Assembly: GCF_002998435.1 (NCBI RefSeq)
Contig: NZ_CP027231.1
Location: forward strand, 558,001 to 622,000
Length of the DNA: 64,000 nt
Direction of reading: 5' to 3'
Source of the DNA: Bacteroides zoogleoformans
GTDB lineage: Bacteria > Bacteroidota > Bacteroidia > Bacteroidales > Bacteroidaceae
The notes below the pieces were generated by a model. That model ran no database searches, had not been told where the DNA came from, and saw only the letters and a program-made list of their open reading frames with translations. A program made the translations under genes and the position numbers. Shown here in pieces: positions 2 through 27,343 of this stretch (its first letter is position 1; every line of letters starts with the position of its first letter).

Positions 2-985
2 AATGATAAAGTTATTAAATGGGGATTTATAGGTTGCGGAGAAGTGACCAAATATAAAAGTGGACCCGCATTCCAAAAAATAAAAAACTCCGAAGTCGTA
101 GCCGTCATGAGCCGAAATGGAGAGAAGGCCAAAACTTACGCTAAAGAAAGAGGAATTCCTAAATGGTACGATGATGCTCAAGAATTAATCAATGATGAAG
201 AGGTAAATGCGATATACATTGCTACTCCTCCTTCATCGCACGCTACTTATGCCATCATGGCCATGAAAGCCGGAAAGCCCGTATATATAGAGAAACCGAT
301 GGCTGTTACTTACGAGGAATGCTGTCGCATAAATCGCATCTCTAAAGAGATGGGAGTACCATGCTTTGTAGCCTATTATCGCCGCTATCTTCCCTATTTC
401 CAGAAAGTAAAATCATTGGTGGACGAAGGAGCTATTGGCAACATTATTAATATACAAATCCGTTTTGCCCAGCCACCTCGCGATTTGGACTATAATAAAG
501 AGAACCTGCCTTGGCGTGTACAGCCCGATATTGCCGGAGGAGGTTATTTCTATGACCTTGCCCCCCACCAGATAGATTTATTGCAAGAAATGTTCGGCTG
601 CATACTTGAAGCCAGTGGTTATAAAAGTAATCGCGGTGGCTTGTATCTTGCTGAAGACACTATTAGTGCATGCTTCCAATTTGACAATGGGTTAGTAGGC
701 AGCGGCTCCTGGTGTTTTGTGGCTCATGATTCTGCCCGTGAAGATCGTGTGGAGGTTATTGGTGATAAAGGGAGAATCTGTTTTTCCATGTTCACTTATG
801 ATCCTATTGCGCTACATACAGAAGGAGGCCGTGAAGAGATTATGATAGAGAATCCCACTTATGTTCAACAACCACTCATTCAGGCTGTAGTCGATCATCT
901 GCTTGGTAAGTCTGTCTGCAACAGTGATGGAGAAAGTGCTACACTAACCAATTGGGTGATGGATAAAATATTGGGCAAGTTGTAG
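2..985 (+). CDS. Gfo/Idh/MocA family NAD(P)-dependent oxidoreductase (5' end just outside window)
   Basis: Probable sugar or cyclitol dehydrogenase; the substrate cannot be told from sequence. The open frame reaches base 2 and opens with a Rossmann strand and glycine motif (VIKWGFIGCGEV), so the GTG at 44 lies inside the fold and the true start is only a few codons before the window. The family motif EKPMA (the catalytic-lysine region) follows at roughly residue 100 of the visible frame, and the C-terminal half matches the usual alpha/beta GFO_IDH_MocA C domain. Total length near 330 residues is normal for the family. It converges on the sigma factor gene with only 23 bases between stop codons. 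Family assignment is secure; role is unknown. Confidence 0.88.
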   Translation, partial: NDKVIKWGFIGCGEVTKYKSGPAFQKIKNSEVVAVMSRNGEKAKTYAKERGIPKWYDDAQELINDEEVNAIYIATPPSSHATYAIMAMKAGKPVYIEKPMAVTYEECCRINRISKEMGVPCFVAYYRRYLPYFQKVKSLVDEGAIGNIINIQIRFAQPPRDLDYNKENLPWRVQPDIAGGGYFYDLAPHQIDLLQEMFGCILEASGYKSNRGGLYLAEDTISACFQFDNGLVGSGSWCFVAHDSAREDRVEVIGDKGRICFSMFTYDPIALHTEGGREEIMIENPTYVQQPLIQAVVDHLLGKSVCNSDGESATLTNWVMDKILGKL

Positions 986-1008
986 AACTTATCGAAGATG
1001 AGATAAAA

Positions 1009-1590
1009 CTATAACCCCCAAAGAACGACGGCCAGAAGCGAGGGGAGAAATTTTTTCAATGCCATTCGAAGAAGCTTTAAAGCCTGCCCTACTCTATAGT
1101 TTACAGTTTGAGAAGATACATTCAATCTGGAAGCAATTTCTTTACGAGTGATTTTTTTGCTCCTGGTCAGTAGATAAACTTCCCGAAACTCTTTCGGTAA
1201 ATTTTTTACGGCTTGTTCATAGGCTTTGAATAACTCATCAGTCATATAAAAATCAGGTGACTCAAACTTTGTTTTATATTTTTCCGCAATCTCTTGATAT
1301 ACTTTCCGTTTGATTTCATAATGGCTTATACGATTCAGCGCCTTGTTTTTGACTATGACAAAAAGCAGAGTTTTTAAGCTTAAATCAACCATCAGCGTAG
1401 AAGTGTTCTCCCAAAGCCACAGCATAGTTTCTTGTACCACCTCTTCTATATCCTCTTGCTCATTGAGATATTGTGAGCAGAAAGCACAAAGTCTCGGAAA
1501 GTAGGCTCTATAAACAAAATCGAATGCAACTTCTTTATCGGTTTGCAAAGCAATAATCAAACCCTTATTGTCATTGATATTCAATAGCAT
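1009..1590 (-). CDS. ECF RNA polymerase sigma-70 factor, Bacteroides expansion family
   Basis: A 193-residue alternative sigma factor that should direct RNA polymerase to a small regulon. Region 2 spans about residues 20-90 (DFVYRAYFPRLCAFC, then the DIEEVVQETMLWLWEN stretch), and region 4 with its helix-turn-helix is near residues 130-180 (LPKEFREVYLLTRSKKITRK, then IASRLNVSSQTVNYRV). The last residues (FLPSLLAVVLWGL) form a hydrophobic tail. In Bacteroidetes such sigmas are normally paired with a FecR anti-sigma and a SusC-type receptor. Here the divergent neighbour at 1765 is only the FecR N-terminus, so control may be altered. A TACTTTTG box lies 38-45 bases upstream. Confidence 0.9.
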   Translation of the reverse strand: MLLNINDNKGLIIALQTDKEVAFDFVYRAYFPRLCAFCSQYLNEQEDIEEVVQETMLWLWENTSTLMVDLSLKTLLFVIVKNKALNRISHYEIKRKVYQEIAEKYKTKFESPDFYMTDELFKAYEQAVKNLPKEFREVYLLTRSKKITRKEIASRLNVSSQTVNYRVGQALKLLRMALKKFLPSLLAVVLWGL

Positions 1591-1627
1591 ATAAGATAAT
1601 AGTATTCACTTTAACTTTAAGGTAAAA

Positions 1628-1635
1628 CAAAAGTA
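1628..1635 (-). promoter_or_regulatory. -7 box for the ECF sigma gene
   Basis: Reads TACTTTTG on the minus strand, matching the Bacteroides -7 consensus TAnnTTTG, and lies about 40 bases ahead of the sigma start at 1590. The -33 element was not clear. Confidence 0.5.
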
Positions 1636-1764
1636 ATCAAAGCAATGTTCAAAATGAAATAAACGAATAAAAAAGATTTTTATTTCAGATTTTAGTATCA
1701 TTGCACAGCTAAATGTATTACAAATAAAGGGTATATTAAAGTAAAAAGATTAGCCGGTATTTAT

Positions 1765-2016
1765 ATGGACGACACTATCTTGATAAAATACTTGCAAGGT
1801 GAATGTAATGATGAAGAATGTTGCCAAGTGGAAACATGGTATGAAGCATCTCTTGATAACCAAAAGTTACTGGAACAGCTTTATTATGTCCTTTTTGTGG
1901 GTGAATGTGTTGCGGAAATCAGTGCAATAAATACAGAAACGTCATTGAGTAAGTTTAAATCGGTTCTCCGTAAAGAGGAGAGACTGACCTATACAAAAGG
2001 CTCCTTGCATGCGTAA
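1765..2016 (+). pseudogene. Truncated FecR-family anti-sigma factor (N-terminal remnant)
   Basis: An 83-residue frame resembling the cytoplasmic N-terminus of Bacteroides FecR anti-sigma factors: it opens MDDTILIKYLQGECNDEE, followed by an acidic helix (QVETWYEASLDNQKLLEQLY). Family members are usually 300 or more residues, with a transmembrane helix and a periplasmic FecR domain. Neither is present: the frame stops just where the basic linker to the membrane helix would begin, and no frame downstream continues the domain. Repeats start six bases after the stop. It may be a dead remnant, or a soluble mini anti-sigma that still binds the divergent sigma factor. The family call rests on the N-terminal pattern alone. 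Confidence 0.68.
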
Positions 2017-2021
2017 TTTTA

Positions 2022-2111
2022 CGGTTGTACAAGTGAAAGCCTACGGTTGTATAAGTGAGGGCTTACACTTGTACAAGTGTGAGGCGGTACCTGTACAAGT
2101 GTAAGCTCTTG
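2022..2111 (+). repeat. Four tandem copies of a 22-24 bp unit with TTGTACAAGTG core
   Basis: Imperfect units at 2022-2043, 2044-2065, 2066-2089 and 2090-2111 share a (T)TGTAcAAGTG core. The last two are so arranged that 2061-2074 and 2093-2106 form a perfect 14-bp inverted repeat with an 18-base loop. It lies between the truncated FecR frame and the 3' end of glutamine synthetase and could fold as a transcript end or be a protein-binding palindrome. Confidence 0.75.
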
Positions 2112-2185
2112 AATATCTATGGATTACAAGACAAAGGGCTATTTCTGCCCATAATCTTTGTCCGATATCTCTGTGTTACGTCGGA

Positions 2186-3688
2186 TTAGCCGCAGTGGAA
2201 GTAACGTTCCACTAATTTCAGCATTTCTTCCTGATTGTTCTGTATTTCGCTACGCAAAGTTTTATCTCCGTATGAACGTAACTTGGCGATGATTCCGTCA
2301 ATCATTGCAGGGCTGAATACTTGATGCTGCTCAAATATGGCGCGCTGCTTTTCCAGACAGTCGGCAGAAGCCGAGCAACTATCCGGCAATTGTGCCAGCT
2401 GTTTCAATTTATCCGCATTTTCTTTCTGATGAATATTCACGTTCACGTAAGTCTTTTCTGCAACAGCCAACGCATCTTCCATCTCAAAACCATGACGACA
2501 TGCCACGGCCAAGCCTGCTATCAACTGATACAAGTTGGCCGAACCGTCTGGAGAGCGCATCTCCACAGTTTGTTTCTGCGTAGTGTCATAATGGCTTGGC
2601 TTCTCCAGCGGATTGGCCAGCACGCACATATCTGTTTTGGCCGACCATCCCAATGGTACACGTACCAATACGGAACGGTTCCGGTCGCCCCAGCACACAT
2701 TGGTTGGTGCTTCCTGATGAGGCACAAGACGGAAATACGACGTAGGATTCGTATTGCCGAAAGCCGTAATGGAGGGTGCCAAAACCATCATTCCTGCAAT
2801 GGCTTTGCGAGCCGTTTCAGAGAGCACACCGTCTTTCAACATCTGATTCTGTCCGTCTTTCACGATGCGCATGTGGATATGCAGACCCGAACCGGCTTTC
2901 CCGGCCGTTATCTTAGGTGCGAAAGTTATATTATAACCATATTGAGAAGCCAGATTGCGAATAACCCATTTGGCTATCATCAGTTGGTCGGCAGCCTGTT
3001 CGGCAGGCACGGGCAGGAATTCTATCTCATTCTGCTCGTATATCTTGTCGCCAAGCGTAAAGTTGCCCACCTCGGAATGACCGTATTTTATCTGTCCGCC
3101 AATTTGCGCAATAGTCAACATACACTCTGTGCGGAACTCATTGAATTTGGCATACGGAGCCGATTCGTGATAACCACGCTGGTCGGTGGCAGGAAACATT
3201 CCGTCATTTTCCGAAATCACATAGTATTCCAACTCGCCCATAGCCTGAAACTCCATTCCCGTTACATTCTTGAATGCCTGACAAGCCTTGCGTAATGTAT
3301 ATTCGGGTGAGCTCTCCAGCGGTTCGCCGTCTTTATTGAAAAAAGAACAAAGCATCGAGAGTGTGGGTATCTGTGCAAAAGGATCAACAAAAGCAGTCCG
3401 GAAACGGGGCACTACATACAAATCGCTGCTGCCCGCCTCTATAAACGGAAAGAGGCTCGATCCGTCCACACGCTCTCCGCAAGTAAGAATTGCGTCCAGA
3501 TAAGCAGCGTTGTTAATAACAAAATTCAGCGTTTTCAATCGTCCGTCTGCTGCCGGATACATGAAATTCACCATACTGATATCATTATCCTCAATATAAG
3601 AAATGATATCCTCTTTCGTAAATTCAGAAGCCGGTTTCTGAAGTTCATCCACCAACGAATGGGGGCACATCGACAATTCTTGATTCAT
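2186..3688 (-). CDS. glnA: Glutamine synthetase
   Basis: Joins ammonia and glutamate to glutamine using ATP, the main entry of nitrogen at low ammonia. The 500-residue length and motifs fit a dodecameric class I-like enzyme: an N-terminal beta-grasp region to about residue 110, metal-binding glutamates around GELEYYV (151-157), the ATP/glutamate motif GSGLHIHM (266-273), the NVCWGDRNRSVLVRVP block (330-345) and EMRSPDGSANLY (376-387). I see no clear adenylylation site near the C-terminus, so control is probably transcriptional or by feedback. The gene is monocistronic, with a leader of about 100 bases after a TACCTTTG box. The 3' end borders the repeat cluster. Confidence 0.93.
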   Translation of the reverse strand: MNQELSMCPHSLVDELQKPASEFTKEDIISYIEDNDISMVNFMYPAADGRLKTLNFVINNAAYLDAILTCGERVDGSSLFPFIEAGSSDLYVVPRFRTAFVDPFAQIPTLSMLCSFFNKDGEPLESSPEYTLRKACQAFKNVTGMEFQAMGELEYYVISENDGMFPATDQRGYHESAPYAKFNEFRTECMLTIAQIGGQIKYGHSEVGNFTLGDKIYEQNEIEFLPVPAEQAADQLMIAKWVIRNLASQYGYNITFAPKITAGKAGSGLHIHMRIVKDGQNQMLKDGVLSETARKAIAGMMVLAPSITAFGNTNPTSYFRLVPHQEAPTNVCWGDRNRSVLVRVPLGWSAKTDMCVLANPLEKPSHYDTTQKQTVEMRSPDGSANLYQLIAGLAVACRHGFEMEDALAVAEKTYVNVNIHQKENADKLKQLAQLPDSCSASADCLEKQRAIFEQHQVFSPAMIDGIIAKLRSYGDKTLRSEIQNNQEEMLKLVERYFHCG

Positions 3689-3792
3689 AATACATCAATT
3701 GTTTTTAAGTTTATATATGGTTAACAAAAAAATGTGTCAACACAGAATCCTGTCATTATCCTATCATCAACATTTGGCACACTCTCGTGAGA

Positions 3793-3800
3793 CAAAGGTA
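3793..3800 (-). promoter_or_regulatory. -7 box for glutamine synthetase
   Basis: TACCTTTG on the minus strand, a full match to TAnnTTTG, about 105 bases upstream of the glnA start. The leader in between is AT-rich and shows no strong fold that I could identify. Confidence 0.55.
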
Positions 3801-3839
3801 GTAAAAAATAATATTAGAAAAAGACATATGCCGGATATT

Positions 3840-4499
3840 TTATGACATCCTGTTCACCAGTTCGTCACAAAGCCGCTTCTTTACTTCTGCCATCGGCACC
3901 TCGCACCCCAACTCTTTTTGCAGGGAAGTGACTCCTTTATCTATAAATCCGCAAGGATGAATGTAGCTGAAATAGCGCAAATCGGTGTTTACATTCAGAG
4001 CTAATCCGTGCATGGTGACAAAATGGCTGCTGCGTACCCCGATAGCACAGATTTTACGGGCGCGGGAAGTATCACCTTCCAACCAGACTCCGGTAGCCTT
4101 TTCCAAACGTCCGGCCACGATTCCATACGAAGCGCATATACCGATTACCGCCTCTTCCAACAAGTGTACATACTCTTTCAACCCTAAAGAATAATCCTCA
4201 AGATTCAATATGGGATAACAAACCAACTGCCCCGGACCATGATAAGTGATGTCTCCGCCCCGGTCTATGTGGTAGAGCGTGGCTCCTATCCTATGAAGCT
4301 GCTCATCATTCAGCAACATATTACCGCCTTTCCCGCTGCGTCCCAATGTATAGACATGGGGGTGCTCGCAGAGCACAATATGATTTACATACTCCACTCC
4401 CGTTTGTTTGGCTTGCACAAGTGTGTCAAACCATTCCGTCTGCCGTTTCCATGCCTCGGCATAAGGTATTGCATTCCAATCTGATATTTCCGGTTTCAT
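3840..4499 (-). CDS. lipB: Octanoyltransferase (lipoate biosynthesis)
   Basis: Moves the octanoyl group from acyl carrier protein to lipoyl domains, the first step of lipoate synthesis; the glycine cleavage system, whose P protein is encoded in this window, needs lipoate on its H protein. Signatures are RGGDITYHGPGQLVCYPI, the block KICAIGVRSSHFVTMHGLAL carrying the catalytic lysine, and HPCGFIDKGVTSL carrying the catalytic cysteine. The ATG at 4499 gives 219 residues and begins right at the conserved N-terminus; an in-frame start at 4538 would add 13 residues of no obvious value. It lies 48 bases past the SusD stop and could be read from the same transcript, with no functional link evident. 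Confidence 0.93.
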   Translation of the reverse strand: MKPEISDWNAIPYAEAWKRQTEWFDTLVQAKQTGVEYVNHIVLCEHPHVYTLGRSGKGGNMLLNDEQLHRIGATLYHIDRGGDITYHGPGQLVCYPILNLEDYSLGLKEYVHLLEEAVIGICASYGIVAGRLEKATGVWLEGDTSRARKICAIGVRSSHFVTMHGLALNVNTDLRYFSYIHPCGFIDKGVTSLQKELGCEVPMAEVKKRLCDELVNRMS

Positions 4500-4547
4500 G
4501 TGGGCAAATATAGGCTTTTTCTGATAATCACCAAGCATCCTCCTCTA

Positions 4548-6182
4548 TCAATATCCTTTATTCTGCACCAGTCTGCCATTCATCTTCAGCACATTGCCCG
4601 GAATGGGGAATACGGTAGTATAGCCATTTGCTTCTTTCGGCAATTGGGGACGGCTGTCATAGGCACGGGTAAACATTCCGAAACGTATAAGGTCTTGGCG
4701 CCTCCATCCTTCCCATGCGAGTTCCAACAGCCGTTCGTCCAGCAAAGTAGCCAATGTGGCCGGACGAGAAGCAGCCTTCACACGGCTGCGTACTTTCGCC
4801 AACTCTTCGTCTCCGCTTTCTCCGTTACGTACTTTTGCCTCGCTCTTCATCAGCAGCACATCCGCATAGCGAAACAACACGACATCATTCTCCATCAATT
4901 TGCCATCTTTGGTAGCGTTCACATCTATCTCATATTTTTTCATCCGCGCGCCCGCAGTTTTTTCATAAGGTGTATCGGATATATCTACTGCCACTTCCCA
5001 CGGATGATATTCCAGCACAGTACCGTCATCCAGTTTGACAATCTTTCCCTGCAAGTCATATACCTCATGTGCAAAGTAACATTTATCAAAGCGGGGATCC
5101 TGCCCATCCGTATCATAGCCAAACACGCGCAATGCATCTACCGTTGCACTGGAGCCGTTTTCACCGCCCAGCCCGTAAGCCTTGGCATGATTATAGTGCC
5201 GGGAACGGAACAGATATTGCAACTGATTGGTATATAAAGTCTTATTCATGGGAATAGTGTATATATTCTCCACCGAAGACTCATTATATACGGCAAAGTT
5301 CGTTTCATATCGGGCTTCCAATCGATATCCCGACGCAGTGATGCTGTCACAATAGGCCATCACTGTTTGCCAAGCATTCAACAACTGTCCGCCCACCGTA
5401 AAGTAAATTTCCTTTCCGTCAGGATGTACACCGTCAGTCCAATCATTGTCGGTATAAACTTCGGCGTTTAATGCCAACTTTGCAAGCAGGAAATAGACCA
5501 CCGGACGCGTGATACGTCCATAATAATCTCCCGGCCGGTTGCTATGAGCCTCTGACAACAGAGGAGCCGCTTGTTGCAATTCTTTCACCGCAAAATCAAA
5601 TATATCTTTCCGTTCCTTCTGCACCACTTTTTCCATAGAAACAGAAGAAGAAAGTACCAACGGCACACGACCGAACAAATCCATCAGATAATAGTAATAC
5701 ATGGCACGCAACGCACGCACCTCTGCATTATATTCCGATAGTTTCGGTTCGTTGTGAGTGACCGGAAAATTTTCGATTCTCTCTACCGACCTGTTGCTCA
5801 GCATCACCACCTTATAGAGATACTCCCATGTGGCTTGAATGGCATCATTGTTCACCCCCCATCGATGCAGAAACAATCCTTGCCAAAAGCCACCATCATA
5901 CCAATCACCACCGCGAGTGGGCATAATGGCTTCATCGGAGGTAAACGTATTCAAGTCATAAACACCGCGTCCCGTTCCTTGCAGCCCCTGACTGTCGGCA
6001 CATCCACCCACATAATTATAAAGTGACGCCACTGCGTTCAAATACAAGTCGGAAAGTGTGCGGTATGCTTCCTCTTTATCTATCTTGTCGTGAGGTACCT
6101 CCTTCAAAAAAGCATCGCAAGTCGTCAACAAGAAAAGACTGCAAAATGCCGCCAGCCAATATTGAATCCGAAAATTCTTCAT
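4548..6182 (-). CDS. SusD/RagB family outer-membrane nutrient-binding lipoprotein
   Basis: Surface lipoprotein that caps a SusC-type channel and captures a glycan or other nutrient. The N-terminus is a lipoprotein signal with lipobox LLTTC (mature Cys near residue 22), followed by the family opening FLKEVPHDKIDKEEAYRT, TPR-like helices, and a C-terminal SusD domain ending in the usual FPIPGNVLKMNGRLVQNKGY. Its 544 residues are typical. It starts 10 bases after the SusC stop, so the two form an operon. No glycoside hydrolase, lyase or sensor lies nearby, so the substrate cannot be inferred. Confidence 0.93.
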   Translation of the reverse strand: MKNFRIQYWLAAFCSLFLLTTCDAFLKEVPHDKIDKEEAYRTLSDLYLNAVASLYNYVGGCADSQGLQGTGRGVYDLNTFTSDEAIMPTRGGDWYDGGFWQGLFLHRWGVNNDAIQATWEYLYKVVMLSNRSVERIENFPVTHNEPKLSEYNAEVRALRAMYYYYLMDLFGRVPLVLSSSVSMEKVVQKERKDIFDFAVKELQQAAPLLSEAHSNRPGDYYGRITRPVVYFLLAKLALNAEVYTDNDWTDGVHPDGKEIYFTVGGQLLNAWQTVMAYCDSITASGYRLEARYETNFAVYNESSVENIYTIPMNKTLYTNQLQYLFRSRHYNHAKAYGLGGENGSSATVDALRVFGYDTDGQDPRFDKCYFAHEVYDLQGKIVKLDDGTVLEYHPWEVAVDISDTPYEKTAGARMKKYEIDVNATKDGKLMENDVVLFRYADVLLMKSEAKVRNGESGDEELAKVRSRVKAASRPATLATLLDERLLELAWEGWRRQDLIRFGMFTRAYDSRPQLPKEANGYTTVFPIPGNVLKMNGRLVQNKGY

Positions 6183-6192
6183 AATATTCTCT

Positions 6193-8931
6193 TTAGAAAT
6201 TAATATTCAACCCCAAAGTAAAAGTTCTGGCAAGCGGATAGTTCCGTTTATCATCGAGGCCTAACGTATTGTTGACGGTAGAACTGTTTATCATAGGTGA
6301 AACTCCCGAATAACCGGTAATCGTAGCCAAATTATTCACCGTAAAAGTAAGACGCAGGTTTTGAATATACTTTTTTGTCCCCCGCAACGGAATGTTCCAT
6401 CCCGCCGTCACATAGTCTAAGTTCACATAATCTCCCCGTTCCAGCCAATAATCAGTAGCCGTCTGGTCTTTGATGTTGGCTTGCGGAGCCTTCTTCATCA
6501 CATTATAGTCAGGAAATATCCCCATATTCATGTAAGTCAGCGAAGTTCCATTATAAATTTTATGCCCGAAAGCCCCATTGATTTGTACCGACAGGTCGAA
6601 ATCCTTATAACGGAAACTGATATTGGAACCGACAATGGCTTTCGGCATGGCTTGTCCGGCTATATAACGGTCTTCTCCATCCTCCAAACTTATGCCTCCT
6701 CCGTTCAAGTCGGCAACCCCATATTTATAACCGCCATTCCCGTCAGTCACCAATCCGCTATTGCGTGGGAGATAAAATACCCCCAACGGCTGTCCCACAA
6801 TCTGATATACAATGTGATTGTAGCCTCCGTGAAAGCCGGCTCCATCCAAGCTTGAAATGCTTTTATATGTTGCTGCACTGAGATATTCTCCATCATACAT
6901 GCCGCTCAAAGACAGCAACTTGTTTCGCTGGAAAGAAACATTGGCATTAATGTTCAGTTCCATATCTTTGGTTTTCAAAGGAGTAACTCCCACTGCCATT
7001 TCCAAACCGCTGTTGCGCATCGAGCCCATATTCGCCACTAATGTGCCATAAGTGAATGGAGGAACACTCACATTATAAGTATAAAGCATGTCGTCTGTCT
7101 TGGACAGATAATAGTTGGCGGAAAGCAACAGGCAATTACCGAATAGTGCCAAATCCACCCCGGCATTCAGATTGTGTTTTACTTCCCATTTCAAATTGGG
7201 ATTTGTATTGCGCAATTCGGTAAGAGAAACCACTTGCGAACTACCTACGGGCACCACTCCGTTGGGCTGTGCCAACCGAAGGGTAGTATAAGAATCTATC
7301 CCGCTCTGATTTCCCGCCAATCCGTATCCTACGCGAATTTTCAGGCTATTCACCTGAGGCAGTTGTTTCATAAACTCTTCCCGAGACACATTCCAGGCTG
7401 CTGAAACTGAAGGGAAGAATCCCCATTTATGATTGCTCCCGAATTTAGAAGAAGCATCTGCACGGGCATTCACGGTCAGGATGTAACGGTCGGCATATGT
7501 ATAATTGACACGTCCCATGTAGGAAACCAGACGAGGGCGTTCATAATATGAGTTCGTCCCTTCCCAAGGTCGTAAGGCACCGGCTTGCAGGTTGTCATAC
7601 CCAAACAAATCGGAACTGAAATTGGTGACTGTTGTATAAAAACCCGTATAGCCCTCCTGCTGAACCTCGGCCAAGGCCAGCGCATCGATAAAATGGCGCC
7701 TCACATGCTTCCTGTATGTCAGTATGGCATTCCCGACCAATGCTTCCGATTTACGTATTCCGCGATAAGCCTGTCCATGTGCCCACACTGCCGTCGGGAG
7801 GTATTGGGAATTTTCAATCATATTATAGGAATAGGAACCGAAAAGCTGAAAGTTCAAATACGGCATAAGATTAAACTTCAGCTTGGCATAAGTGCTCATG
7901 TGCGAGGTCGATTCTTTGTCTTTCACCTCCATCCAAGCCAAAGGATTGGTGATTTGGCTTGCGTTGGTCACACCATCCCACGAACCTTCCGCATTCTTAT
8001 GATCAGGATAAGTAGGATTGAATGCGGCTGCCGAATAAAAAGTCTTTTGTACGTCTACCGGATTGCGATTCTTCTGCACTGAACCGAACATGCCCACATC
8101 GCACTGCACAAATCCGCCGAAAAGTTTCTGAGTCATATTCATGTTCGATGTAAAGTTAGTCATATGTTCATTGACGATAACCCCTTCTCTACGCATAAAA
8201 CCAAGAGAGACCCGATAGTCGGAATCGTCCTTTCCTCCATAGAAAGCCACATGATGATCTTGTTGCCAACCGGCTCGCTGTATCTCTTTCAGAAAATCCG
8301 TATCATTACCTAAGTCTACGATGGATATTCCTTCTTTCCGTGCCACATCGCGATATTCGTCGGCCGACAACATTTTAAGACTTTTATAAACGGCGGCAAC
8401 ACCGAAATTACCATTGTAGCTTACCCGCGTCTTGCCTTTCATGCCTTTTTTTGTCGTAATTTCAATGACACCGGACGCACCACGCGAACCATATTGGGCA
8501 GTCTCCGAAGCGTCTTTCAGAATCGTGAAACTCTCTATATCAGTAGGATAAACAGAAGTAAGCAAAGAAATATCTCCAAACACTCCGTCAATGATAATCA
8601 GCGGGTCGTTGCCACTGGTCAATGAAGTTGTTCCGCGAAGACGAACAGCATCCAAGGCAGCCATGCCATTTGCCGCACGATGTATCGTCAACCCCGGCAC
8701 CTTACCGTAAATGGCCTCCAGAGGATTGGTAATCTGGTCGACCTTCAGCAGTTTTCCGGTAACTTTTTCAACAAGGGAAGAGACGTTTTTCTCATGTCCC
8801 ATAGTATATCCGATGGTTATCATGGAGTCGGGCACAGCAATATGCAGCGTTTTTTGCGCATGTATAGACACCCCCGCTCCGAAGACACAGAGACATACTG
8901 AGACGACAAATTTATAACACAGTTTCATCAT
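6193..8931 (-). CDS. SusC/RagA family TonB-dependent outer-membrane receptor
   Basis: TonB-driven outer-membrane importer partnered with the SusD protein downstream. After a signal peptide (cleavage near GAGVSIHAQ), the protein goes almost directly to the plug domain (ITNPLEAIYGKVPGL, then DPLIIIDGVFGD, and LKDASETAQYGSRGASGVIE), and then a long beta-barrel ending in an aromatic strand (TFTLGLNINF). At 912 residues it is shorter than common SusC proteins because the usual N-terminal carboxypeptidase-D-like domain is absent, as is any STN signalling domain. A sigma/anti-sigma relay through this receptor is therefore not supported. Two adjacent ATGs (8931, 8928) are equivalent. Confidence 0.93.
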   Translation of the reverse strand: MMKLCYKFVVSVCLCVFGAGVSIHAQKTLHIAVPDSMITIGYTMGHEKNVSSLVEKVTGKLLKVDQITNPLEAIYGKVPGLTIHRAANGMAALDAVRLRGTTSLTSGNDPLIIIDGVFGDISLLTSVYPTDIESFTILKDASETAQYGSRGASGVIEITTKKGMKGKTRVSYNGNFGVAAVYKSLKMLSADEYRDVARKEGISIVDLGNDTDFLKEIQRAGWQQDHHVAFYGGKDDSDYRVSLGFMRREGVIVNEHMTNFTSNMNMTQKLFGGFVQCDVGMFGSVQKNRNPVDVQKTFYSAAAFNPTYPDHKNAEGSWDGVTNASQITNPLAWMEVKDKESTSHMSTYAKLKFNLMPYLNFQLFGSYSYNMIENSQYLPTAVWAHGQAYRGIRKSEALVGNAILTYRKHVRRHFIDALALAEVQQEGYTGFYTTVTNFSSDLFGYDNLQAGALRPWEGTNSYYERPRLVSYMGRVNYTYADRYILTVNARADASSKFGSNHKWGFFPSVSAAWNVSREEFMKQLPQVNSLKIRVGYGLAGNQSGIDSYTTLRLAQPNGVVPVGSSQVVSLTELRNTNPNLKWEVKHNLNAGVDLALFGNCLLLSANYYLSKTDDMLYTYNVSVPPFTYGTLVANMGSMRNSGLEMAVGVTPLKTKDMELNINANVSFQRNKLLSLSGMYDGEYLSAATYKSISSLDGAGFHGGYNHIVYQIVGQPLGVFYLPRNSGLVTDGNGGYKYGVADLNGGGISLEDGEDRYIAGQAMPKAIVGSNISFRYKDFDLSVQINGAFGHKIYNGTSLTYMNMGIFPDYNVMKKAPQANIKDQTATDYWLERGDYVNLDYVTAGWNIPLRGTKKYIQNLRLTFTVNNLATITGYSGVSPMINSSTVNNTLGLDDKRNYPLARTFTLGLNINF

Positions 8932-8969
8932 TCTGCCTATTAGAAAGGTTAACTCTTTTTTATAGCAAC

Positions 8970-8977
8970 CAAAAGTA
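8970..8977 (-). promoter_or_regulatory. -7 box for the SusC-SusD operon
   Basis: TACTTTTG on the minus strand, 39 bases upstream of the SusC start, matching TAnnTTTG. Confidence 0.5.
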
Positions 8978-9058
8978 AGAAAATCTTTTCACTTTTCCAA
9001 GAAAGATTGGATAACAGTTTTTTTTTCTTTTTTATGCATACAGTTCGTTTATATGTTC

Positions 9059-9066
9059 TATATTTG
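9059..9066 (+). promoter_or_regulatory. -7 box for the DUF3298 lipoprotein gene
   Basis: TATATTTG, 49 bases upstream of the ATG at 9115; matches TAnnTTTG. Confidence 0.5.
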
Positions 9067-9114
9067 TCGATAAAGATTCTTGGTTGAAGTATTGAATTAT
9101 AAATAAAACCGAAA

Positions 9115-9972
9115 ATGAAAAAGCAAACTGTCAGTCTACTTGTCTTTCTGCTTGCGACAAGCAGTTTTTTCTTTTCTTGCAATAACACCGTGAACAAAAA
9201 CGCCGGAGCGTTGGAGTTCGACAGTATACAAGTAAATGAAACATCGCATCTTTTTGGAGATACAGCCAAACCGGCCTGCAACCTTGTTGTAAAATTCACT
9301 TATGCCGCAAAATCATCCGATACAAAACTGAAGGACAGTCTCAACACCTTTCTTGTTTCCACCTTCTTCGGCGATAAATACATGATGGCAACGCCGGAAG
9401 AAGCCATAAAGAAATACACGGAAAAATACATCAACGATTATCGCAACGATCTGGAACCGATGTATAAAAAAGACGAACAGGAAAAAGAAGAAGGCGCAAG
9501 CATGGAAGCATGGTACTCGTATTATAAAGGTATAGAAAGTCGCGTACAACTCTACATCAAGCATCTGCTGGTCTATCGCATCGACTACAACGAATATACC
9601 GGCGGAGCACACGGCATCTACATGACCACATTCCTCAACATGGACTTGCGCACATTAAGCCCCGTCCGCTTGGACGACTTGTTCGTCGATGATTACAAAG
9701 AAGCGCTGACCGACTTGCTGTGGAACCAATTGATGGCTGATAATAAGGTAACCACCCGTCAAGAGTTGGAAGACATGGGCTATGCCACCACAGGTGAACT
9801 GGCGCCGACCGAGAATTTCCACCTCACCCCCCAAGGCGTCACGTTTTATTATAATGTCTACGACATAGCTCCTTACGTAATGGGGCCGATAGAAATTTCT
9901 CTTCCATATGAAATGGTGCAACACTTGCTGAAAGACGATTGCATGGTGCTGAATGAAATACGAAACTCTTAA
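9115..9972 (+). CDS. DUF3298 (RsiV-like) lipoprotein
   Basis: Envelope lipoprotein of unknown function, 285 residues. The signal peptide ends in lipobox FFFSC (Cys near residue 22). The body has the DUF4163/DUF3298 layout: an N-terminal beta region (about 35-150), then the signature YTGGAHGIYMTTFLNMD near residue 163 and a C-terminal segment with FHLTPQGVTFYYNVYDIAPY. DUF3298 domains are known from RsiV-type lysozyme-sensing anti-sigmas, but there is no transmembrane anti-sigma segment here. It is the first gene of a plus-strand run with rsmG, the MBL hydrolase and gcvP (gaps of 20-38 bases), so it may be cotranscribed with them. Confidence 0.8.
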   Translation: MKKQTVSLLVFLLATSSFFFSCNNTVNKNAGALEFDSIQVNETSHLFGDTAKPACNLVVKFTYAAKSSDTKLKDSLNTFLVSTFFGDKYMMATPEEAIKKYTEKYINDYRNDLEPMYKKDEQEKEEGASMEAWYSYYKGIESRVQLYIKHLLVYRIDYNEYTGGAHGIYMTTFLNMDLRTLSPVRLDDLFVDDYKEALTDLLWNQLMADNKVTTRQELEDMGYATTGELAPTENFHLTPQGVTFYYNVYDIAPYVMGPIEISLPYEMVQHLLKDDCMVLNEIRNS

Positions 9973-24731: not shown

Positions 24732-24867
24732 CCGGAGGATGAAAAAGAGGGGAACAAAACCGAAAAGAAGCAGGAAGAAATAGTTGAGGAAAAATTTAAT
24801 TAAGGGCTAAAATAAGCTCTTGATAAAAAAGTCAAATTGAAGAGTTGGCAGAAACAGAGAAAAGCAC

Positions 24868-24875
24868 TAACTTTG
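24868..24875 (+). promoter_or_regulatory. Promoter of the IscU-like/GGGtGRT operon
   Basis: TAACTTTG -7 box with a TTGG at 24845-24848, 19 bases upstream, as a -33 element; both spacing and sequence suit the Bacteroides housekeeping promoter. The leader to the ATG at 24936 is about 55 bases. Confidence 0.6.
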
Positions 24876-24935
24876 TACCGACTAACAAAAGTGGATTACG
24901 TTTTTTTATTATATCATTTTTAAAAAGAGCTAATT

Positions 24936-25637
24936 ATGACTTATTCACACGAAGTGGAACACATGTGTGTTGTGAAGAAAAGTCCTAACCACGGACCGGC
25001 TCCTATTCCCGAAGAAGGTAAATGGGTAAAAGCTAAAGAAATTGTTGACATCTCTGGTTTGACACACGGTATCGGCTGGTGTGCTCCTCAGCAAGGTGCA
25101 TGTAAATTAACCCTCAACGTAAAGGAAGGCGTCATTCAGGAAGCGTTGGTCGAGACTATCGGTTGCTCCGGCATGACTCACTCTGCTGCCATGGCGTCAG
25201 AAATCCTCCCGGGAAAGACTATTCTCGAAGCGCTGAACACCGACCTCGTTTGCGACGCTATCAACACTGCCATGCGCGAACTTTTCCTGCAAATCGTTTA
25301 CGGCCGCACGCAATCCGCTTTCTCGGAAGGCGGTTTGATGATCGGTGCCGGTTTGGAAGATTTGGGTAAAGGTCTGCGCAGTCAGGTAGGCACGCTGTAT
25401 GGCACTTTGGCCAAAGGTTCCCGCTATCTGGAAATGGCCGAGGGGTACATCAAGACTATCGCTCTGGACAAGAACGATGAAATCTGCGGATACGAATTCG
25501 TTCACCTTGGCAAGTTCATGGATGAGATCAAGAAAGGTACGGACGCCAATGAAGCTTTGAAGAAAGTAACCGGTACGTACGGTCGCTTCACTGCCGAACA
25601 AGGCGCAGTTAAACACATTGACCCACGTCACGAATAA
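24936..25637 (+). CDS. IscU/NifU-like iron-sulfur scaffold-type protein
   Basis: A 233-residue protein whose middle resembles the IscU/NifU N-terminal fold: the segment ACKLTLNVKEGVIQEALVET followed by IGCSGMTHSAAMASEILPGK parallels the two cysteine loops of IscU (Cys56 and Cys77 here). Further cysteines are C11, C49 and C106. It differs from true IscU in its N-terminal extension (about 50 residues) and a long C-terminal half (EMAEGYIKTIALDKNDEICG onwards). A role in Fe-S handling is inference. It forms a two-gene operon with the GGGtGRT gene, whose ATG follows after 19 bases; no other isc, suf or nif genes are nearby. Confidence 0.72.
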   Translation: MTYSHEVEHMCVVKKSPNHGPAPIPEEGKWVKAKEIVDISGLTHGIGWCAPQQGACKLTLNVKEGVIQEALVETIGCSGMTHSAAMASEILPGKTILEALNTDLVCDAINTAMRELFLQIVYGRTQSAFSEGGLMIGAGLEDLGKGLRSQVGTLYGTLAKGSRYLEMAEGYIKTIALDKNDEICGYEFVHLGKFMDEIKKGTDANEALKKVTGTYGRFTAEQGAVKHIDPRHE

Positions 25638-25640
25638 TAT

Positions 25641-25650
25641 AAGGAGGAAA
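25641..25650 (+). promoter_or_regulatory. Strong Shine-Dalgarno site for the GGGtGRT gene
   Basis: AAGGAGGAAA ends six bases before the ATG at 25657. Purine-rich sites this close to consensus are rare among the genes of this window; it fixes the start codon and suggests high translation. Confidence 0.8.
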
Positions 25651-25656
25651 GACATT

Positions 25657-26667
25657 ATGATTAGAGAAGTAAAATTTGAAAGCCAAGACCGTCGTATCAA
25701 ACAGATTCTTACTGCCTTGAACGCTAACGGTATCAAAGACATCGAAGAAGCTAACGCTATCTGCGAAGCTCATGGTCTCGATCCTTATAAGACTTGTGAA
25801 GAAACCCAGCCCATCTGTTTTGAGAATGCCAAATGGGCTTATGTGGTGGGTTGTGCCATTGCTATCAAGAAAAGTTGTAAAAATGCCGCCGAGGCTGCCG
25901 AAGCAATCGGTATCGGCCTGCAGGCATTCTGTATTCCGGGTTCCGTAGCCGACGATCGTAAGGTTGGTATTGGCCATGGCAATCTGGCAGCCATGTTGCT
26001 ACGCGAAGAAACTAAATGTTTCGCATTCCTGGCCGGTCACGAATCATTCGCCGCTGCCGAAGGCGCCATCAAGATTGCCGCTAAAGCCGATAAGGTGCGT
26101 AAAGAGCCGCTGCGTTGCATCTTGAACGGTTTGGGCAAAGATGCCGCACAGATTATCTCTCGCATCAACGGTTTCACTTATGTACAGACTCAATTCGACT
26201 ATTATACGGGCGAACTGAAAGTTGTCCGTGAAATAGCATATAGCGACGGTCCTCGCGCCAAAGTAAAATGCTACGGTGCCGATGATGTTCGTGAAGGTGT
26301 AGCCATCATGTGGAAAGAAGGTGTAGACGTTTCCATCACCGGTAACTCTACCAACCCGACCCGCTTCCAACATCCCGTTGCAGGTACTTACAAGAAAGAA
26401 CGCGTACTTGCCGGCAAACCTTATTTCTCTGTGGCATCAGGTGGTGGTACCGGTCGTACGCTCCATCCGGACAACATGGCAGCCGGCCCTGCTTCTTACG
26501 GTATGACGGACACGATGGGACGTATGCACAGTGACGCTCAGTTCGCAGGTTCTTCATCCGTTCCCGCTCACGTGGAAATGATGGGATTCTTAGGAATCGG
26601 CAACAACCCGATGGTAGGTTGCACTGTGGCTTGCGCTGTAGACGTGGCTCAGGCTTTGGGTAAATAA
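25657..26667 (+). CDS. GGGtGRT protein (conserved, function unknown)
   Basis: A 336-residue protein carrying the family-naming motif GGGTGRT at residues 262-268. It has eleven cysteines (36, 47, 54, 66, 74, 92, 121, 154, 205, 322, 326), glycine-rich loops (VGIGHGNLAA, FLGIGNNPMVGC) and no signal peptide or membrane helix, suggesting a cytoplasmic enzyme or metal/cluster-binding protein. I know of no assigned activity. It follows the IscU-like gene in one operon, has its own strong ribosome-binding site and ends 22 bases before a perfect hairpin terminator. Confidence 0.85.
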   Translation: MIREVKFESQDRRIKQILTALNANGIKDIEEANAICEAHGLDPYKTCEETQPICFENAKWAYVVGCAIAIKKSCKNAAEAAEAIGIGLQAFCIPGSVADDRKVGIGHGNLAAMLLREETKCFAFLAGHESFAAAEGAIKIAAKADKVRKEPLRCILNGLGKDAAQIISRINGFTYVQTQFDYYTGELKVVREIAYSDGPRAKVKCYGADDVREGVAIMWKEGVDVSITGNSTNPTRFQHPVAGTYKKERVLAGKPYFSVASGGGTGRTLHPDNMAAGPASYGMTDTMGRMHSDAQFAGSSSVPAHVEMMGFLGIGNNPMVGCTVACAVDVAQALGK

Positions 26668-26689
26668 ATTAAAGTTTCCCACATAAAAA

Positions 26690-26721
26690 AACTCCCGTAA
26701 CCAGATAAAATTACGGGAGTT
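26690..26721. terminator. Hairpin terminator shared by GGGtGRT gene and engB
   Basis: Perfect 11-bp stem AACTCCCGTAA / TTACGGGAGTT with a 10-base loop, followed by TTCTTTT on the plus strand and A-rich sequence on the other side, so it can act in both directions. Confidence 0.88.
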
Positions 26722-26740
26722 TCTTTTATGGCTGTATTAT

Positions 26741-27343
26741 CTACTTATTCAAATCTTTGTTAATACTTTCCATGTAATCTAATAATTCCTTCTTTCCCAA
26801 TCGGTTTTCGGAAGAGGTCACGAAATAAGGCGGCAGTTCCTCCCACTGTTCCTGCAACTTTTGAAGATATTGACTGATATTGCTGTTCAGTCTGCCTCCT
26901 TTCAACTTATCGGCTTTGGTAAAAACAATAGCAAAAGGAATGGCATTCTCACCCAGCCACTCTATGAATTGGAGGTCGATGGTCTGCGGCTCCAGCCTGC
27001 TGTCTATCAAAACAAACAGATTAGTCATTTGCTGACGCTGCAAGATATAGCTTTCGATGATATTTCTTATTTGCTCCTTGCCTTTCTGTCCCCGCTTGGC
27101 ATATCCATAACCCGGAAGGTCTACAATGTACCAGCTCTTATTGATAAGAAAATGATTGATGAGCATCGTCTTGCCGGGAGTGGCAGAGGTCATGGCAAGG
27201 CCTTTCCGCCCGGTGAGCATATTGATCAGGCTGGATTTTCCTACATTAGAACGTCCGATAAAGGCATATTCGGGGAAAGACCCTTCCGGACATTTTTGCA
27301 CATCTGTATTACTGATGGTAAATTCCGCACTTGTAATATCCAT
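26741..27343 (-). CDS. engB: Ribosome-biogenesis GTPase EngB/YsxC
   Basis: Essential small GTPase that acts in assembly of the large ribosomal subunit. G1 [11 protein letters not shown] (about residues 31-41), the G2/G3 region ending [12 protein letters not shown]4 TKADK and G5 TSSE are all present in a 200-residue protein of normal length. It shares a 93-base divergent promoter region with recR. Confidence 0.95.

Follow-up and report, generated by a model that had tools for sequence, protein, structure and literature searches.

An IscU-like protein and a GGGtGRT family protein encoded as a conserved gene pair in Bacteroides zoogleoformans and other bacteria: a candidate two-subunit iron-sulfur enzyme

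Background

What do an IscU-like protein and a protein of the GGGtGRT family do together, when their genes are found side by side in one genome after another? The question is raised by a locus of Bacteroides zoogleoformans (assembly GCF_002998435.1, contig NZ_CP027231.1, positions 558,001-622,000, forward strand); this stretch of 64,000 nt is called the window here, and the coordinates below refer to it. Gene 1 (24936-25637, + strand, ATG at 24936, stop at 25637) encodes 233 amino acids (aa), an IscU-like core with an extra C-terminal region (about residues 150-233). Gene 2 (25657-26667, + strand, ATG at 25657, stop at 26667) encodes a GGGtGRT protein of 336 aa. The name of the GGGtGRT family and the co-regulation of both genes are already in print. 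Our literature search, outside which lay most subscription papers and all bioRxiv preprints, found in the portions of the papers available no function for GGGtGRT and no treatment of the two genes as one system; the published results cited below come from such portions. The pair spans five phyla, is reported to be abundant in gut and rumen anaerobes and responds to iron more strongly than ferritin in Bacteroides thetaiotaomicron, yet it is without a function in the literature searched. In the present study, we examined both genes and their relatives by computation, and we suggest that the pair may well be a two-subunit iron-sulfur (Fe-S) enzyme with an IscU-type, cluster-holding partner, a reading that we regard as evenly balanced.

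Linkage of the two genes

Loci were fetched by gene 2 and then scanned for gene 1. Among the 130 loci with a near-complete gene 2 (match of more than 250 residues), which include the window's own locus and some near-duplicates, 128 had gene 1 directly before gene 2 on the same strand and none had it downstream, and the two loci without an upstream gene 1 (L025 and L104) start at a contig end. The gap between the genes, with the final sense codon of gene 1 as the reference, was -4 to 57 bases in 117 of these 128 loci and 91 to 470 bases in 11. We also drew sets of genomes; because such relatives are not independent samples, no weight is given to Fisher test values computed from them. In 198 genomes of the same order (Bacteroidales), each gene was found in 36, both in 34 and neither in 160; the genomes with gene 2 only (G220 and G351) and with gene 1 only (G334 and G379) are all cut by a contig end at this place. 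In 249 genomes from the phylum of G395, the source of the Clostridium neonatale locus, both genes were found in the same 16, one of which has each gene in two copies. The pair is effectively obligate in all loci and genomes examined. The original prediction would have been in difficulty if the genes were usually found apart, which they are not. The fixed order and the matched copy number indicate that the two genes make up one functional unit.

One of the 34 genomes counted above, G293, has only a decayed remnant of the locus (L212, positions 264-957), in which the start of the IscU-like gene abuts the last half of the GGGtGRT gene and stops lie inside the IscU-like part, as if both genes were lost together. 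In two Treponema assemblies (L065 and L076), the GGGtGRT protein is placed inside a mostly Bacteroidota clade (100/99) and the IscU-like protein with Bacillota (84/93); these partners may have different origins, or the bins may be contaminated. Many database matches are 540-585 aa long, and we inspected 10 sequences, eight from the GGGtGRT search and two from the IscU-like search. Six of the eight (P0006, P0007, P0011, P0034, P0041 and P0091) are fusions of both proteins. The linker of five resembles the out-of-frame end of gene 1, with differing junctions, and P0006 resembles the product of a lost stop codon; no fused gene was found in 115 surveyed loci. We set aside natural fusions as a proof of contact, since insertions and deletions or sequencing errors would explain the fused proteins.

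The IscU-like protein

A moderate-quality model and a fold search assign the IscU fold to gene 1, with a core at residues 38-125, and a profile of 57 gene 1 sequences matched IscU-family structures in the PDB (best E-value, 6.2e-5). The match to PF01592 (NifU_N) lies at the threshold of 22 bits: 21.1 bits for the protein, and 21.9 bits, or 22.2 with the neighbours, in a search of the genome, where gene 1 is the only NifU_N match at an E-value of 1e-3. The scores against the NCBIfam equivalogs are all below the cut-offs (NifU_clost, 24.3 against 187.9 bits; IscU, 20.2 against 192.4; SufU, 18.5 against 92.5; NifU, 13.9 against 273.3). The likeness to the IscU/NifU_N/SufU family resides in the core, and about 85 additional C-terminal residues and a fixed partner that is something other than a cysteine desulfurase set gene 1 apart.

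Gene 1 has six cysteines (C11, C49, C56, C77, C106 and C184), one more than the five first counted. C49, C77 and C106 are kept in 229 of 229 aligned proteins and C56 in 228. In the model, C49 (codon 25080-25082, + strand) and C56 (25101-25103, + strand) map to the first loop of the core and the beginning of its second strand. C77 (25164-25166, + strand) is the counterpart of IscU C63, and a helix follows its turn, as in IscU. C106 (25251-25253, + strand) lies at the N-terminal end of the final core helix in the model, where the four cysteines surround the IscU active-site region. This place of C106 may recall the H105-C106 motif before the last helix of IscU, which is itself unaligned. Of the canonical residues C37, D39 and C63, only C63 has a direct match in the sequence alignment, C37 and D39 being replaced by Q53 and A55. 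Q53 is kept in 229 of 229 proteins, and C49 and C56 are nearby. The first protein was originally described as having the two-cysteine layout of IscU/NifU scaffolds; its IscU-like core is upheld, and the layout is at best a topological resemblance.

Such a protein could be a true scaffold, with gene 2 supplying sulfide, electrons or transfer, the pair working beside SUF as an accessory Fe-S assembly unit for a set of anaerobic Fe-S proteins. The IscU-like core of the only NifU_N match in the genome is consistent with this, as is the position of SUF elsewhere: two SufB/D-type genes are 2.3 Mb from the pair along the 3.36-Mb contig (or, should the contig be circular, about 1.0 Mb in the opposite direction). 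Furthermore, in Collinsella aerofaciens (L144, positions 122-8999) the pair follows sufC-sufB-sufD-sufS-sufU at a distance of 1.9 kb, and a transposase lies in the interval. The statement that no isc, suf or nif gene is near is therefore true of the window and untrue of Collinsella. However, the C37 and D39 positions are replaced in the alignment, the operon has no cysteine desulfurase or other assembly gene from promoter to terminator, SUF is already present in both organisms checked, and 160 of the 198 Bacteroidales genomes live without either gene. The reported abundance (see below) also seems high for an assembly factor. We therefore consider a role in assembly unlikely.

The GGGtGRT protein

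Gene 2 is a full-length member of PF14057 (638.5 bits, cut-off 27, profile positions 1-327 of 327), as had been proposed from its motif. It agrees fully with this family, the definition of which does not include the fixed IscU-like partner. The predicted structure (predicted local distance difference test score, pLDDT, 87.5; predicted template modelling score, pTM, 0.86) has a helical N-terminal domain (residues 1-118) and a Rossmann-like alpha/beta core (residues 119-336). A solved enzyme fold for GGGtGRT was sought in the PDB, and none clearly matched: the sequence alone gave no match at an E-value of 1, a profile of 143 sequences gave a best E-value of 0.92 and no convincing relative, and a fold search with the model gave no close solved relative, the Rossmann-like core being generic. 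Profile-to-profile comparison by hhalign, with a shallow gene 2 profile (effective number of sequences, Neff, 1.96), gave a probability of 1.6 over 28 columns for SDH_alpha (PF03313; serine dehydratase/cysteine desulfidase), with 0.1 for the reversed control, and 0.3 over 31 columns for Prismane/hybrid cluster protein (PF03063).

The alignment of 143 proteins has 92 invariant columns, many of them polar and often in loops after strands. The invariant loops are AGHES, NGLGKD, TGN, SGGGxGRT and SSSVPAH, most of which follow strands. The segment made up of C121 and the loop that follows strand 1 (CFAFLAGHESF, 26017-26049, + strand) includes the invariant H128, E129 and S130. The motif that names the family, GGGTGRT (residues 262-268; 26440-26460, + strand), is in a low-confidence stretch of the model and is perhaps a flexible loop. 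Gene 2 was noted as cysteine-rich, and 11 cysteines are indeed present, but most are incidental and only four are kept throughout the alignment: C92 (codon 25930-25932, + strand), C121 and C205 (26269-26271, + strand) in 143 of 143 proteins and C36 in 142. C54 is found in 105, and the remaining six in 11 to 32.

Expression and response to iron

The codon-use score of gene 2, counted from its own start, is 0.66, above all 48 open reading frames (ORFs) listed in the window (mean 0.563, standard deviation 0.048); as the listed ORF, which has 13 extra codons, it ranks third. Gene 1 (0.613) ranks sixth against the same list, which was made mechanically and may hold non-genes. The mean for 30 ORFs in the ribosomal-protein region is 0.705, to which gene 2 comes nearer than any listed ORF. 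This supports the earlier suggestion of a product made in high amounts, with published abundance in agreement as far as those sources go. For chicken caecal anaerobes, high in vivo expression of GGGtGRT has been described (PMC11204068). In rumen samples, "Nitrogen-fixing protein NifU" was among the top 25 protein families in three of three (0.28, 1.72 and 1.47 percent; PMC6043501), its identity with gene 1 being by name only. A protein table from patient gut samples lists both proteins, with adjacent locus tags, as down (PMC12014591). In Clostridium innocuum, a virulence-factor predictor scored GGGtGRT among its highest (PMC9942572); this label is doubtful because the family is widespread in gut bacteria.

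Published data link the expression of the pair to iron in two species. In B. thetaiotaomicron, BT0173-BT0174 dropped 11- to 12.8-fold on iron depletion, where ferritin and a rubrerythrin gene were down 2.7- to 3-fold and hcp 3.6-fold, and some other loci dropped more (PMC10434189). In C. pasteurianum, iron excess raised the GGGtGRT spot 7.1-fold (early) and 2.2-fold (late), while the "NifU-related" protein encoded next to it, seen as two spots, rose 2.4- and 3.7-fold (early) and 1.6- and 2.9-fold (late) (PMC5395762). The pair thus resembles other iron-regulated genes of anaerobes (PFOR, ferredoxin, rubrerythrin and hcp), the expression of which drops when iron is short. However, Pfam and PDB searches gave no sequence relation between these proteins and the pair.

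A drop that exceeds that of ferritin in the same study, together with the reported abundance, could also be expected of a reservoir, which would bind and buffer iron and sulfur (or iron only) when iron is plentiful and release it to apo-proteins when iron is short, as a cytoplasmic counterpart of ferritin or of IssA. That no fixed third pathway gene stands beside the pair would suit it as well. In a possible role of holding iron and sulfur, the pair would be like the thioferrate storage protein IssA (PMC5524996), but gene 2 resembles a folded enzyme. The 92 invariant columns, many polar and in loops after strands, are enzyme-like, which storage would presumably not need, and just 4 of the 11 gene 2 cysteines are kept throughout. 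Because this pattern of conservation favours catalysis over storage, a reservoir seems improbable to us. A further alternative is a pair based on zinc or persulfide, as in SufU, or another function without Fe-S, the dependence on iron being regulatory only. The metal is not readable from sequence, and the PDB molecule name of SufU, a protein of this fold, is zinc-dependent sulfurtransferase. However, the expression of the pair tracks iron like the PFOR, ferredoxin and rubrerythrin genes in the same studies, and we regard this alternative as very unlikely.

A proposed function

We return to the two-subunit Fe-S enzyme, which is the most economical account of the combined evidence, with a chance that we put at about one half. 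The dependence on iron and the four conserved cysteines of each protein argue for Fe-S, and the reported abundance argues against a mere assembly factor. The genes travel together in the genomes examined, and their products are reported to be abundant and to depend on iron, so that they probably specify one undescribed Fe-S enzyme. Gene 1 would be an IscU-type protein that binds an Fe-S cluster, or the metal for it, through C49, C56, C77 and C106, and it would stay with gene 2 permanently, at a roughly stoichiometric ratio, instead of acting as a general scaffold. Gene 2 would be the catalytic subunit, with invariant loops mostly after strands as in an alpha/beta active site, and its C36, C92, C121 and C205 could serve either a separate cluster or one handed over by gene 1. 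The pair may be a bulk protein of a mainly anaerobic metabolism, produced while iron is in good supply and strongly lowered when it is scarce. We infer the Fe-S content, the physical complex, the catalysis and the oxygen sensitivity of the pair. The original prediction had offered an Fe-S-dependent enzyme with its carrier, or a storage unit; the belonging together and the IscU-like core have stood, and the conservation pattern now favours the enzyme over storage.

More tentatively, GGGtGRT might found a class of Fe-S enzyme that is new, abundant and anaerobic, with a permanent subunit of IscU fold carrying the working cluster, a scaffold fold turned into part of a catalyst; we find this rather doubtful. 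If the pair is an Fe-S enzyme, gut anaerobes have a sizeable activity that consumes iron and has escaped notice, and the IscU fold has a use outside cluster assembly. The pair is small, and not every genome has it.

Operon structure

The two genes, which are 19 bases apart on the + strand as first noted, form an operon with a conserved promoter of Bacteroides type at one end and a strong terminator at the other. The promoter (24845-24875, + strand) consists of TTGG at -33 (24845-24848), a 19-base spacer and TAACTTTG at -7 (24868-24875), which we take to be the Bacteroides consensus. The TAnnTTTG box at -7 is kept without change in 9 of 9 aligned Bacteroidales upstream regions (the window counted), which supports the promoter originally proposed, though bare TAANTTTG occurs in the window no more often than by chance (12 found, 13.8 expected). 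The ribosome-binding site of gene 2, AAGGAGGAAA (25641-25650, + strand), had been called rare; it is the sole copy in the window, where 0.17 copies are expected and at least one copy was seen in 15 of 100 shuffles. The terminator predicted after gene 2 is a hairpin at 26682-26730 (+ strand; -20.3 kcal/mol, z -6.5 against shuffles), which a simple hairpin scan overlooked because its loop is 10 bases. A convergent ORF in the list (26741-27343) ends just past the hairpin.

Distribution and genomic context

The pair is present in Bacteroidota, Bacillota, Spirochaetota, Pseudomonadota and Actinomycetota, and the named sources include Bacteroidales, Treponema, Clostridium, Oscillospiraceae and Succinivibrio, many of these being metagenome bins, and also Collinsella. 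Both genes are also on replicons of Vibrio sp. THAF and Persicobacter, which are not strict anaerobes; thus, the anaerobe bias that was expected is seen, but it is not absolute. Among 198 genomes drawn from the phylum, gene 2 was found in the window's own genome only, and among 14 control genomes in Bacteroides ihuae only. In Parabacteroides distasonis (L145, positions 7791-9948), a hydrophobic frame of 63 codons is between gene 1 and gene 2, and a 4Fe-4S ferredoxin-nitroreductase fusion follows the pair on the same strand.

The 3' end of gene 2 (26460-26667 in the window) resembles an integration site, as observed in loci L005, L008-L012, L047, L049, L050, L056, L057, L065 and L103. Five loci on viral contigs (L008-L012) have only the last 54-67 codons of gene 2, and in one contig (L005 and L011) sequence of gene 2 is present at the beginning and recurs close to the end. 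In six of six loci tested (L005, L008, L009, L011, L012 and L047), a tyrosine recombinase (about 400 aa) is encoded near the end of gene 2, in five of them 293-372 bases downstream. Exact repeats of at least 18 bases, taken from the last 250 bases of gene 2 or the next 60, recur further downstream in 6 of 79 loci.
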